From Nitrospira japonica (lineage in GTDB: Bacteria; Nitrospirota; Thermodesulfovibrionia; Thermodesulfovibrionales; DYHX01): a DNA stretch of 38,272 bases. The position numbers and the translations under genes are program-made. Shown piece after piece: positions 1,625-35,567 of the stretch; positions within the stretch are counted from its first letter, which is position 1, and each line of letters begins with the position of its first letter. Below the pieces are notes generated by a model. That model worked only from the letters and a program-made list of their open reading frames with translations, did no database searches and was not told where the DNA came from. The DNA lies in contig DYHX01000010.1 in assembly GCA_020723925.1 (NCBI GenBank), forward strand, positions 1 through 38,272, in the 5' to 3' direction.

Positions 1625-1692
1625 GCCTGCTTGCCCAAACACCCCTTTTTAGTGCAAAATATCACCCAGATCCAGCGATACCCGCAGGAGGT

Positions 1693-1723
1693 ATGGCAGG
1701 ATTCATAATCTTTAGAATCGACA
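1693..1723. repeat. Solo arm of the 8.1-kb inverted-repeat element
   Basis: These 31 bp match 8099-8129 at 29 of 31 positions. Both copies happen to encode MAGFIIFRID. The same motif forms one arm of the inverted-repeat element at 8072-8300. Here it lies just upstream of gnnA and offers a misleading ATG. Confidence 0.7.
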
Positions 1724-1737
1724 AGTGGGAGATTTTT

Positions 1738-6675: not shown

Positions 6676-8052
6676 ATGTGGATGTTTCTGCTTTATAGCA
6701 TTTTATATTTTATCGCATCAATCCTTCTGTTGCCCTTCCAGTATAGAAAAAGGCCAAAGGAATTCAGACACAGATGGCTCAAGGAAAAATTTGGATTTAT
6801 TAACTCAGAACTTCAAGTTCCAAAATCCCCCCTTCCCCCCTTTGCTAAAGGGGGGCGTGGGGGGATTATCTGGATTCATGCAGTCTCAGTTGGTGAAGTC
6901 CTGGCAGCAATACCACTTCTTTATAGACTCAGGGAAAAATTTCCTTCGGCTAATCTCATGGTCTCCACAATCACAGACACAGGACAGGGGATTGCAATCG
7001 AGAGGGTCCCTGATGGGACAAAGGTGATATATCTCCCATTCGACCTCATTTTTGTATTAAAAAGGGCTCTTAAGAATGCGCGGCCAGACATCTTCATCAC
7101 AATAGAGACAGAACTGTGGCCGAATATATTCAGGTTATTTAAAAGAGAAGGGATTCCTATAATCGTAATGAATGGGAGGATATCAGACAATGCATTCAAA
7201 GGCTATGAGAAGATAAAGTTCTTCATGACCAGGGTTATTGAGTGTGTTGATATGTTCGGCATGCAGGAGTCTGTGTATGCAGAGAGGATAATTGGACTTG
7301 GTGCTAATAGAGAAAGGGTTAAGGTAATTGGCAATTTCAAATTTGATACAAGACCACCTGATGGTATTCCTGAATGGTCAAGATTATTGTCTTCACCTGT
7401 TATTGTAGCTGGCAGCACACATAGAGGTGAGGAGGATTTGATTGTCTCTGTTTTTTCAAAATTAAAAAATGATTTTTTAGGCCTAAATTTAATCATTGCG
7501 CCAAGGCACCCTGAGAGATTCAAGGAAGTTGAGGATTTACTGAAATCAAGTGGGATTCCCTTTGTTAAACGCTCTGAGCTCCCCCCTCCTAACCCGCCCC
7601 CTCAAAATCCCCCCTTATTCCCCCCTTTACAAAAGGAGGGTGTGGGAGGATGGGTGGAGGTGAACTCTGAACTCCGAACTATAAAGGGTCAAATAATTAT
7701 ACTCGACAGCGTGGGCGAGCTCTCATCTGTTTATGGTATATCCGATATCGCGATTGTTGGTGGTAGTTTTATCGAGCACGGCGGCCAAAACCCCCTTGAG
7801 CCAGCATACTGGGGAAAGCCCGTTTTATGCGGGCCACACATGGAGAACTTTCCTTTTGTAGAGGACTTTTACAGAGAGGGTGCAGTAATAAAAGTAGATG
7901 CGGCTAATTTATATGATGCTATAAAGGCACTTCTCATATCGCCGGAAAGGAGGCATACTATTGGCAGTAAGGCGCGGGAATTATACAGGAAGAAGACAGG
8001 CGCAGTTGATGAAGCAGTGAGGATTATAGGAAGATATATAAATGCAAGATGA
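6676..8052 (+). CDS. waaA: Kdo transferase WaaA with two repeat-derived inserts
   Basis: GT30 transferase that adds Kdo from CMP-Kdo to lipid IVA at the inner membrane. An N-terminal membrane anchor is followed by HAVSVGE with the catalytic Glu (E74 from ATG 6676). IETELWPN, APRHPERF and VGGSFIEHGGQNPLEP are family hallmarks. The protein is about 458 residues, 30-40 longer than usual. The excess lies in two inserts, residues about 44-63 and 299-338, each encoded by a G/C-run palindrome plus heptamers. Both keep the frame. The start is TTG 6670 or ATG 6676; it is probably coupled to the msbA stop (6671-6673) because no Shine-Dalgarno is visible. Confidence 0.9.
   Translation: MWMFLLYSILYFIASILLLPFQYRKRPKEFRHRWLKEKFGFINSELQVPKSPLPPFAKGGRGGIIWIHAVSVGEVLAAIPLLYRLREKFPSANLMVSTITDTGQGIAIERVPDGTKVIYLPFDLIFVLKRALKNARPDIFITIETELWPNIFRLFKREGIPIIVMNGRISDNAFKGYEKIKFFMTRVIECVDMFGMQESVYAERIIGLGANRERVKVIGNFKFDTRPPDGIPEWSRLLSSPVIVAGSTHRGEEDLIVSVFSKLKNDFLGLNLIIAPRHPERFKEVEDLLKSSGIPFVKRSELPPPNPPPQNPPLFPPLQKEGVGGWVEVNSELRTIKGQIIILDSVGELSSVYGISDIAIVGGSFIEHGGQNPLEPAYWGKPVLCGPHMENFPFVEDFYREGAVIKVDAANLYDAIKALLISPERRHTIGSKARELYRKKTGAVDEAVRIIGRYINAR
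6802..6867. repeat. In-frame palindrome plus heptamers, waaA insert 1
   Basis: Three AACTCAG-like heptamers (6802-6822) abut a 44-bp palindrome (6824-6867). The palindrome reads AAT, C6, TT, C6, TTT, then GCT, AAA, G6, CGT, G6, ATT. It encodes the peptide SPLPPFAKGGRGG, which is absent from typical WaaA. Confidence 0.85.
7606..7683. repeat. In-frame palindrome plus heptamers, waaA insert 2
   Basis: A diverged copy of the 6824 palindrome (7606-7651, with C6 runs paired to GGAGGG and GGGAGG), followed by AACTCTG, AACTCCG, AACTATA at 7663-7683. Extra C-rich half-copies lie at 7580-7601. The heptamers encode NSEL, the same peptide as at insert 1. Confidence 0.82.
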
Positions 8053-8328
8053 GTCAATAGTCTAAAATCAGGCCGAAAAATAGACATAGAAGGCAGGCAT
8101 GGCAGGGTTCATAATTTTTAGAATCGACAGATTATCAGAAATGGACATATCTATCTCATTGTTTTATCAATGGTTTTTGAGGTGCATACGGTTTATTTTT
8201 ACAGGTAGGATTTCAAGGTGTCGAACTAAAAATTTTTCACCTGCCATGCCTGCCTCAGATATCGGTATCAGCCAGTTTATAACTCTATGTCTATTTTGGG
8301 GAGTCAGGAGTCACTAATGACTTATGAC
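8051..8328. mobile_element. MITE-like inverted-repeat element set in a heptamer array
   Basis: The element runs 8072-8300. Its ends are GCCGAAAAATAG and CTATTTTGGG, extended on each side by ATAGACATAGA and its complement. Inside lies a perfect 16-bp inverted repeat (AGGCAGGCATGGCAGG at 8091-8106, complement at 8240-8255) whose arms continue, less perfectly, through ATTTTTAG and TCGACA. Heptamers flank it in register: three units at 8051-8071 and four at 8301-8328 (GAGTCAG, GAGTCAC, TAATGAC, TTATGAC). There is no transposase gene. It fills the 296-nt gap between waaA and lpxK. Confidence 0.75.
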
Positions 8329-8348: not shown

Positions 8349-9491
8349 ATGGGTCCTTTAGAGTTTTTATACTATATCGGATATTCGATAAAAAAGTGGA
8401 GCAGCTTGAAGAATCAGAAAAGTCTGCCGCATAAGGTTATAAGCATCGGCAACATAACTGTTGGGGGCACTGGCAAGACCCCTGCTGTCATAGCCATAGC
8501 CGAAGAGGCAATAAGGCGCGGATTTAAACCATGCATTCTCACGAGGGGCTACAGGGGTAAGGCAAAGGGGCCATGTTTTGTGAATGCGAAATGTGGAATG
8601 TGGAATGCGGAATTATCTAACTCCGAACTCCGAACCCAGTCCCCGAAGTCTTTAATTGGGGATCTGAACTCTGAACTTTACGGTGATGAGCCTGTATTGA
8701 TGGCAGAGAGATTAAAAGATGTGCCCGTAGTAAAATGTGCAGATAGATATGAAGGCGGTCTTTTTGCTTTAAACTCATTACCCATTACCCATTACCCATT
8801 ACCTGTCTTTATTCTTGATGATGGCTTTCAGCACTGGAAACTATTTAGAGACAAAAATATCCTTCTTGTAGATGGGACCGACCCCTTTGGAGACAGAAAA
8901 CTCCTTCCAGTTGGGAGACTCAGGGAACCGTTAAAGGAGATGAGAAGGGCAGATATAATTGTCATAACCAAAAATACAGTCGGCAGTCGGCAGTCGGCAG
9001 TCAACAGTCGGGCGTTAGAACTAAGAACCAAGAACTTAAAACTCGGAACTCAGAAACATAAAGCCGAGAGTTTAATTAATGAGATAAAGGAATACAATTC
9101 AGGTGCACCCATATTCTTTGCGGGCCATAAGCCATCTTTTGTGCGAACAATATCAGGCCAGGAATTTCCTCCAGACTGGCTCTCAGGCAAGGATGTCTAT
9201 GGTTTCTGCGGCATCGGGAACCCGTATTCTTTTAGAGATACTCTCAGTTCAACAGGTGCACGGCTTATGGGATTCAGGGCATACAGGGACCATCACAGGT
9301 ATAGCAGGTGGGATGTGGAGCGCATTATAAAGGAGTCGCAGAGGAGTAATGCTGAGTGGATTGCTACAACAGAAAAGGATATAATGAGACTCAAAGGCCT
9401 TGATCTGCCAGAGAATCTTGTTTTGTTAGGTATCGAGTTTAGTGTTGATAAGAGGTTTTATGAGGAAGTTTTTAGTGAAATCAAGTTCTAA
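8349..9491 (+). CDS. lpxK: Tetraacyldisaccharide 4'-kinase LpxK with three repeat inserts
   Basis: P-loop kinase that phosphorylates the 4' position of the lipid A disaccharide at the inner membrane. Walker A GGTGKT is at residues 39-44 from ATG 8349. DGFQHW, LLPVGRLREPL and TTEKDIMRL are family motifs. TTG 8343 is an alternative start; neither has a clear ribosome binding site. About 380 residues is long for LpxK. Three stretches are encoded by 7-bp repeats and interrupt the conserved core: about residues 80-111, 143-153 and 210-238. The frame is kept through all three. The gene is separated from waaA by the 8072-8300 element but should belong to the same pathway operon. Confidence 0.88.
   Translation: MGPLEFLYYIGYSIKKWSSLKNQKSLPHKVISIGNITVGGTGKTPAVIAIAEEAIRRGFKPCILTRGYRGKAKGPCFVNAKCGMWNAELSNSELRTQSPKSLIGDLNSELYGDEPVLMAERLKDVPVVKCADRYEGGLFALNSLPITHYPLPVFILDDGFQHWKLFRDKNILLVDGTDPFGDRKLLPVGRLREPLKEMRRADIIVITKNTVGSRQSAVNSRALELRTKNLKLGTQKHKAESLINEIKEYNSGAPIFFAGHKPSFVRTISGQEFPPDWLSGKDVYGFCGIGNPYSFRDTLSSTGARLMGFRAYRDHHRYSRWDVERIIKESQRSNAEWIATTEKDIMRLKGLDLPENLVLLGIEFSVDKRFYEEVFSEIKF
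8586..8680. repeat. Heptamer arrays around a hairpin, lpxK insert 1
   Basis: GCGAAAT, GTGGAAT twice and GCGGAAT occupy 8586-8613. AACTCCG twice and AACCCAG follow at 8619-8639. An imperfect hairpin with TCCCC/GGGGA ends lies at 8640-8662, then AACTCTG and AACTTTA at 8667-8680. The GT-type units are on the plus strand at the left and on the minus strand at the right. Confidence 0.8.
8777..8804. repeat. Heptamer array, lpxK insert 2
   Basis: Four exact 7-bp steps of ATTACCC (the last is ATTACCT), which read GTAATGG on the minus strand. It encodes LPITHYPLP just before the conserved DDGFQHW motif. Confidence 0.88.
8977..9060. repeat. Twelve-unit heptamer array, lpxK insert 3
   Basis: 84 bp that divide exactly into twelve heptamers. 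Five are CAGTCGG-like (8977-9011), one is a junction unit (9012-9018), and six are AACTNNG-like (9019-9060). 84 bp equals 28 codons, so the frame is preserved. The GT-containing strand switches at the junction. Confidence 0.88.
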
Positions 9492-9712: not shown

Positions 9713-9853
9713 CCCCAAGTTGAGCGATTTATTATACAAACCCATGACAGCCGAGACGGCTGTCCTACCCTATGGGTGATGTCGTCAAACAGTAGGACAG
9801 GCGTCTCGCCTGTCAAAGAGTGATTTATAATCAAAGAATCGCTCAATTTGGGT
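9713..9853. mobile_element. Small MITE with terminal inverted repeats and twin hairpins
   Basis: Outer inverted repeats CCCAAGTTGAGCGATT (9714-9729) and its near complement (9837-9852) enclose two 23-bp hairpin units at 9746-9768 and 9792-9814, in opposite orientation. Each unit is a hairpin (GACAGCC/GGCTGTC or GACAGGC/GCCTGTC) plus CCTAC. The two differ by compensatory changes that keep the stems paired. It has no coding capacity and ends 21 bp before yjbQ. Confidence 0.75.
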
Positions 9854-26364: not shown

Positions 26365-26369
26365 AGGCA

Positions 26370-26430
26370 GTGACAAGTAGCGGGCCGAAAAATAGCTTGC
26401 TATTTTGGGGTAACGAGTGACGAGTTAAAA
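26370..26430. repeat. 26-bp palindromic element inserted in a heptamer array
   Basis: GTGACAA and GTAGCGG (26370-26383) precede the palindrome 26384-26409, and GTAACGA, GTGACGA, GTTAAAA (26410-26430) follow. The palindrome begins GCCGAAAAATAG and ends CTATTTTGGG, the same termini as the 229-bp element at 8072-8300. The AAAATAGC/GCTATTTT stem has a TT loop. Confidence 0.82.
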
Positions 26431-34824: not shown

Positions 34825-35567
34825 AATAGGGGCAGCGACCATTTTCTTGACACCTAACCTAACAAAACCGTATTATTGTCACTGTGCCAAGAATATCAAG
34901 AGCAGTGGCCATTGGGTATCCTCATCATATAATCCAAAGAGGTAATTACCGACAGTCAGTATTTGAAACCGAAGAAGACTACATGCAATATTTGCAATGG
35001 CTAAAGAAATACTGCCATAAATATTTCCTGAATATCTGGGCGTATTGCCTTATGAGCAACCATGTGCATTTCATAGCAGTGCCGATGAAAGATGACTCAC
35101 TTGCAAGGACATTTAATACCCTACACATAAGGTATTCGCAGTATTTTAATCAAAAAGGCAACAACAAAGGACATTTGTGGCAGGGGAGATTCTTTTCTTG
35201 CGTTCTTGATGAGAGGCATTTATTTGCAGCGATTCGTTATATAGAAAACAATCCTGTAAGGGCTGGAATTGTGCGGATGCCTCATGAATGCAGATGGTCA
35301 AGTGCAAAGGCGCATGTTTATAAAGAACCCGATTCCATATTGTCTGATGATTGTTATTTAACAAAAGGAATTGATGACTGGTTGGCATACCTTATGGAGA
35401 AAGATGATTCAAAGCTTATAAACAACATAATTCAAAGCACAAAAACAGGGCGTGCATGTGGAGACGAGACTTTTTTAAACACAATTGAGGGAATTCTTGG
35501 AAGAAGACTGGTAGCCTTACCGAGGGGTAGACCCAGAAAAAAGGAATAAATGGTCGCTGTCCCTATT
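34825..35567 (+). mobile_element. RAYT transposase unit bounded by 20-bp inverted repeats
   Basis: AATAGGGGCAGCGACCATTT at 34825-34844 is mirrored by AAATGGTCGCTGTCCCTATT at 35548-35567, with one mismatch. The repeats lie just outside the coding sequence, and the right one overlaps the stop codon. This is the expected arrangement for a Y1 transposase with its own REP-like ends. Confidence 0.8.
34884..35549 (+). CDS. REP-associated tyrosine transposase (Y1/HUH, IS200-like)
   Basis: A 221-residue single-domain HUH transposase. The HUH pair is H60/H62 in MSNHVHF, and the catalytic Tyr is Y119 in IRYIENNPVRAG. The N-terminal PRISRAVAIGYPHHIIQRGN is the family opening. GTG 34884 is the start, with no strong ribosome site. 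It nicks and joins single-stranded DNA at palindromic REP sequences. The many palindromes in this window are candidate relatives, but none matches the flanking repeats here closely. Confidence 0.92.
   Translation: MPRISRAVAIGYPHHIIQRGNYRQSVFETEEDYMQYLQWLKKYCHKYFLNIWAYCLMSNHVHFIAVPMKDDSLARTFNTLHIRYSQYFNQKGNNKGHLWQGRFFSCVLDERHLFAAIRYIENNPVRAGIVRMPHECRWSSAKAHVYKEPDSILSDDCYLTKGIDDWLAYLMEKDDSKLINNIIQSTKTGRACGDETFLNTIEGILGRRLVALPRGRPRKKE

Follow-up and report, generated by a model that had tools for sequence, protein, structure and literature searches.

The window analysed here, a 38,272-nucleotide stretch from a Nitrospira japonica draft genome, carries a 230-bp palindromic element (8072-8301) between kdtA (waaA) and lpxK, flanked on both sides by 7-bp repeats that are not part of the element. 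A second element of 27 bp (26383-26409), which has its ends in common with the long one, lies inside another 7-bp array between two biotin-carboxylase-type genes. A preliminary description had already recognised two elements with shared termini, and both are present, with boundaries refined to those given below. The features of the two sites, together with those of a truncated relative elsewhere in the window, are as follows.

1671-1728, plus strand: left half of a subfamily-B copy, truncated (CCAGCGATA...AGAATCGACAAG), immediately upstream of a Gfo/Idh/MocA gene
8051-8071, no strand: left part of the pre-existing 7-bp array (GAGTCAA TAGTCTA AAATCAG)
8066-8071, no strand: left target-site duplicate AATCAG (the family rule is a 6-bp duplication)
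8072-8301, plus strand: subfamily A element, 230 bp
8073-8090, plus strand: left terminal inverted repeat CCGAAAAATAGACATAGA
8091-8106, plus strand: 5' arm of stem P1, AGGCAGGCATGGCAGG
8107-8112, plus strand: conserved internal loop, 5' side, TTCA (minus strand: TGAA)
8113-8121, plus strand: 5' arm of stem P2, AATTTTTAG
8122-8129, plus strand: conserved motif AATCGACA
8130-8218, plus strand: apical region between the two core motifs, varying among subfamilies
8219-8225, plus strand: conserved motif TGTCGAA
8226-8234, plus strand: 3' arm of stem P2, CTAAAAATT
8235-8239, plus strand: conserved internal loop, 3' side, TTTCA
8240-8255, plus strand: 3' arm of stem P1, CCTGCCATGCCTGCCT
8256-8283, plus strand: extra 3' segment, TTGGTATTAACC-like, here CGGTATCAGCC, the source of the element's asymmetry
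8284-8301, minus strand: right terminal inverted repeat, the minus strand reading CCCCAAAATAGACATAGA
8302-8307, no strand: right target-site duplicate AGTCAG
8308-8328, no strand: right part of the 7-bp array (GAGTCAC TAATGAC TTATGAC)
26368-26382, no strand: left part of the second array (CAGTGAC AAGTAGC G)
26377-26382, no strand: left duplicate GTAGCG
26383-26409, no strand: 27-bp mini-element GGCCGAAAAATAGCTTGCTATTTTGGG
26410-26415, no strand: right duplicate GTAACG
26416-26428, no strand: right part of the second array (AGTGAC GAGTTAA)

With inverted ends of the CCCAAAAATAG type and no ORF, the long element resembles a MITE, and its two flanking duplicates match at 5/6 positions. The inner inverted repeat previously claimed for it is real, as two arm pairs (8077-8090 with 8284-8297, and 8091-8106 with 8240-8255) are both 100% complementary and the folded strand gives a z of -6.6. 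Protein coding in the core was considered and rejected, as the ORF from an inner ATG is not kept and several copies (e.g. L192, L194) have a stop directly after it.

Both elements belong to a repeat family. Within 3 mismatches, the 18-bp termini occur 116 times in the 1.87-Mb genome, against 5 times for the reversed pattern used as control, and a search of the same genome with the long element returned 95 matching segments, the full copies being 92-97% identical. The assembly is a 106-contig draft in which many contigs end inside copies, and copies were read from targeted stretches. Among those with both ends, an exact 6-bp target duplication was found in 13 of 23 and a match of at least 5/6 in 19 of 23, compared with 0 of 506 and 4%, respectively, for mismatched flank pairs. 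As in MITEs, the family combines terminal inverted repeats (18-bp ends) and a target-site duplication of fixed length (6 bp) with a short, multi-copy body that lacks transposase coding capacity and is present or absent between relatives. Several subfamilies have ends or core in common, including A (the window copy), B (ends AATCCAGCRATA), and D and E, whose arms and loops differ. Chimeric copies occur (L078), and in some copies extra hairpins are seated in the internal loop of either arm. As well, some dozen A and B copies from G000 (among them L006, L009 and L031) share a 26-bp GC hairpin (CCCCGCACTACATCCGTAGTGCGGGG) at the same position in the left arm, with TTCA at each border and the loop in either orientation. 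The half B element at 1671-1728 gives the first ATG of a 327-aa Gfo/Idh/MocA-type ORF (MAGFIIFRIDKWEIF...), an apparent N-terminal extension.

Period-7 arrays exceed chance in the window, with 8 detected at the stricter setting against 0.04 expected in shuffles, and no comparable signal is present in the window at other periods apart from the multiple 14. They total nine or ten, most of them far from any element copy and several inside the lpxK coding sequence (8349-9491). Once 8072-8301 and 8302-8307 are taken out, the joined flanks read GAGTCAA TAGTCTA AAATCAG GAGTCAC TAATGAC TTATGAC, and once 26383-26409 and 26410-26415 are taken out, CAGTGAC AAGTAGC GAGTGAC GAGTTAA. A phase scan that took away 0-13 further bases gave the best period-7 agreement between the two flanks at 6 bases for both sites (12/21 and 14/21), followed by 10/21 at 13 (= 6+7). 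This peak at 6 bp at both sites therefore indicates that the arrays are older and that insertion duplicated 6 bp. The register had been said to be kept up to the element boundary, and deleting the element with exactly 6 bp indeed restores it. The further suggestion that the arrays are a by-product of movement was rejected, because they are continuous without the element and one 6-bp duplicate, most lie far from copies and several are in lpxK. The two arrays provide a built-in ruler for the 6-bp duplication, independent of the sequences of the duplicates.

A pattern search revealed four copies of the ~26-bp form at different sites, all with the centre AGCTTGCT (CTTG). Exact 6-bp duplicates, read from the flanks, border three of them (TTCTCC, ATTTAG, GGGATT), and those of the window copy match at 5/6. 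Because the centre is shared, common descent with independent insertion is favoured over four separate deletions, and the origin of the window mini-element as a unique post-insertion deletion was rejected, given four copies with one CTTG centre at separate sites with their own flanking duplicates. The shared ends and the four related copies with duplications also bear out the earlier description of the short element as a sibling of the long one. Longer short forms (~45, 53, 83 and 85 bp, within a range of ~45-85 bp) look like internal deletions. How small a transposable unit can be is given a testable lower bound by the ~26-bp copies.

The family is spread through one class of Nitrospirota. 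A covariance model of the core, built from an alignment that two copies in relatives made possible, matched 37 of 177 genomes of the home order (30 of 85 genera), and when 396 genomes drawn from the phylum were searched, 11 genomes of the same class outside the order matched as well, the matches including no genome beyond class Thermodesulfovibrionia. The exact subfamily-A core had no match in 84,980 genomes, because that sequence is private to its own genome; the exact D/E-type core was recovered in 29 stretches of the 84,980 genomes, all from Nitrospirota/Thermodesulfovibrionales MAGs, and viral contigs gave no core match. The CCCAAAAATAG-type end core is also present in genomes G061 (237 vs 15 for the reversed control) and G317 (42 vs 13), whose flanks show the same duplication rule with CCC...GGG ends. 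This 6(-7)-bp rule recurs in other families and in another order (e.g. L269, L271, L244, L245). Copies are solitary in some genomes, and the ~237 termini in the 1.9-Mb genome G061 correspond to more than 100 copies.

Orthologous sites differ between species. One is filled in L183 (G131) and lacks the element in L160 (G128), while another is filled in L163 (G129) and L222 and lacks it in L229 (G131); these empty sites belong to other species (72-94% identity), and their junctions are not base-perfect. In three species of one genus, a single intergenic site carries the element in one orientation (L156, L186) or inverted (L184), and L158 and L170 have one common site beside genes that read, from their translated ends, as RNase Y and YmdB. 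The earlier view of a mobile palindromic element is thus upheld by the family itself, by the 6-bp duplications (13/23 vs 0/506) and by the filled and absent orthologous sites.

The ~150-base core retains a single fold in two orders of class Thermodesulfovibrionia, its two stems covarying and its loops conserved. Among 80 distinct P1 arm sequences, 1099 of 1217 pairs are Watson-Crick, as are 508 of 528 pairs among 49 distinct P2 arm sequences. The internal loop and the apical motif are conserved though unpaired, the core boxes TCGACA/TGTCGA are kept, and copies stand singly between ordinary genes; for comparison, integron attC sites, which are folded recombination sites, have GTTRRRY/RYYYAAC core boxes and lie beside cassettes and an integrase. 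The internal loop TTCA/TTCAC corresponds to UGAA/UGAR on the other strand and might represent a form of the tandem G.A motif. Since arm-to-arm correction could maintain complementary stems without selection but would erase the loops too, we infer selection on the fold, which may act during mobility or on the transcript of the core. The compensatory changes across two orders suggest that the fold itself may be needed for movement or persistence.

In the most probable reading, to which we assign a probability of about 0.87 as a whole, 8072-8301 is a copy of a non-autonomous MITE-like transposon that entered a pre-existing array through a 6-bp staggered cut, and the mini-element represents this type of end in its smallest form, inserted under an identical 6-bp rule. 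A transposition enzyme acting in trans would recognise the CCCAAAAATAG-type inverted ends and insert the element via the staggered cut, the target being the existing heptamer array between kdtA and lpxK, where the 6-bp duplication keeps the register on both sides; the 27-bp form would likewise have been inserted into the array between the biotin-carboxylase-type genes. Of this reading, the family, its ends, the 6-bp duplication, the order of events, the differences in presence between species and the spread across the class are demonstrated, while the transposase acting in trans and selection for the folded core are inferred. Several points weigh against this reading, namely that the duplicates at both window copies match only at 5/6, that the empty sites come from species at the above distance, and that 27 bp is implausibly short for an ordinary two-ended transpososome. 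Moreover, no autonomous partner was found: '+/-' terminus pairs 0.6-4 kb apart were absent among the matches listed for the own genome (100 of 116), and no IS-sized end pair occurred among the termini listed for ten related genomes, in draft assemblies that break inside copies.

The preliminary description had also offered landing sites as one reading of the arrays, and a transposition machinery that prefers heptamer repeats would explain why both window elements sit inside arrays and why a few other copies (L010, L006) lie near heptamer-like sequence. However, when 23 empty sites were reconstructed, only 2 scored at least the period-7 threshold of 14/21, against 4.7% of intergenic positions (~1 expected), and the window copy alone of the four mini-elements is visibly inside an array. 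Copies with these ends and without heptamers, named beforehand as evidence against the proposal, do exist (L003, L004, L005, L009 and others). Because 2 of 23 insertion sites are periodic, heptamers are not required landing sites; targeting of arrays is very improbable, a weak preference being compatible with the data at n = 23 sites. The heptamers are a separate, genome-wide feature independent of the element, whose insertion into these older 7-base arrays was a matter of chance. It could also be supposed that the element acts above all as a structured RNA gene or cis-regulatory leader, whose folded core binds a protein or ligand and controls the neighbouring genes, with mobility being secondary. 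The compensatory stems and the conserved loops and apical motif described above would fit such a role, as would the position of most copies 7-100 nt from start codons, with 4 of 57 between convergent genes. Of 61 cases between tandem genes, 45 have the window-plus orientation running with the genes (45 vs 16, p = 0.0003), these counts being approximate as genes were called by a simple ORF rule. In P1, G.U-type pairs are favoured on the window minus strand, since in window-plus orientation A.C exceeds G.T by 64 to 21 (counts inflated by shared ancestry), pointing to the opposite strand as the one that folds. The orientation and wobble biases, however, favour opposite strands; the former is missing in the other order (8 of 15, 8 vs 7), and the P2 wobbles are few and run in the opposite direction (7 vs 2). 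Sense and antisense fold equally well (19/43), and folding energy, rejected as a marker of the RNA strand, does not pick one. A fixed gene partner is absent as well, and the Rfam 15 covariance models gave no family at E<=1 and none plausible at E<=5. We consider the RNA role possible but doubtful.

As for the enzyme, a single-strand (Y1/REP-type) transposase might mobilise the element, as in REP elements, rather than a DDE-type enzyme. The genome has four Y1_Tnp (REP-type) genes, one of them in the window (34884-35549), and no DDE_Tnp_1 match; in addition, at 27 bp a mobile palindrome has the size of a REP, and the hairpin structure is conserved. However, Y1 transposition would not be expected to leave regular 6-bp duplications, the ends lack a GTAG/GGAG base tetranucleotide, and in the three remaining Y1 loci, as fetched, neither the ends nor the core motif of the element occurs. 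No full-length copy lies near the window Y1 gene, though one mini-element (L237, C69:54654) is ~400 bp from the Y1 gene C69:53934-54269. Mobilisation by a Y1 enzyme therefore seems improbable. Also unlikely, if a little less so, is an ancient mobile element of the whole class in which selection acts on a folded ~150-nt RNA or single-stranded DNA. Such an element would move as a structured molecule with conserved motifs in its internal loop, and its ~26-bp mini-form would transpose alone, something hardly possible for an ordinary two-ended transposase. If true, this would be a new mode of small-element mobility.

Returning to the MITE-like transposon, the evidence supports well a new and apparently undescribed family, ordinary in how it lies in the heptamers but set apart by a folded core that is conserved and by its 26-bp form; neither Rfam nor the literature searched, largely outside subscription journals, yielded a description of it. 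MITEs usually appear conserved at their ends only, within one species or genus, and RUP, Correia/NEMIS, ERIC and QMITE are mostly restricted to one species or genus, whereas the present element keeps one core, with covarying stems and conserved loops, across two orders of a class. Similar to these reviewed prokaryotic MITEs (PMC2229807, PMC10969869), it is shorter than ~290 bp, lacks a transposase gene, has inverted ends and a target duplication, and forms a long stem-loop in multiple intergenic copies. Its ends are CCC...GGG with a 6-bp duplication, in contrast to the TA motif common in the reviewed families (PMC2229807, PMC10969869). Like pneumococcal BOX elements (PMC3049150), the family is modular, with inner hairpins present or absent, subfamilies and chimeras; the likeness noted is one of architecture, and the modules here, unlike those of BOX, are extra hairpins in the internal loop of either arm. 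REP/REPIN elements with RAYT transposases are likewise short mobile palindromes, and this genome has Y1 genes and REP-like GTAGGACAG hairpins, but the element differs from them in its 6-bp duplications, the lack of GTAG at its base and a 200-bp structured core.

The Y1 gene at 34884-35549, REP-associated and transposase-like, has inverted-repeat flanks (AAATAGGGGCAGCGACCATTT / AAATGGTCGCTGTCCCTATTATTT), and at least some of the three other Y1 genes have comparable ones. Another palindromic element, with ends TTGAGCGATT/AATCGCTCAA, surrounds an inverted pair of REP-like GTAGGACAGGCGTCTCGCCTGTC hairpins at 9720-9850, and similar ends are also present in other contigs (L138).

Among bacterial simple repeats, heptanucleotide arrays form a recognised class, and polymerase slippage has been proposed as their origin (PMC4679880). 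The flanking arrays resemble those of cyanobacteria and Beggiatoaceae (PMC4679880) in having a period of 7, a mainly intergenic location and several unit sequences, but differ in occurring also inside coding sequence. Within lpxK, four to five different arrays (e.g. CATTACC x4, CAGTCGG x5) are translated at 8580-9055, and period-7 expansion is thus tolerated in an essential-type gene; the unit length is not a multiple of 3.
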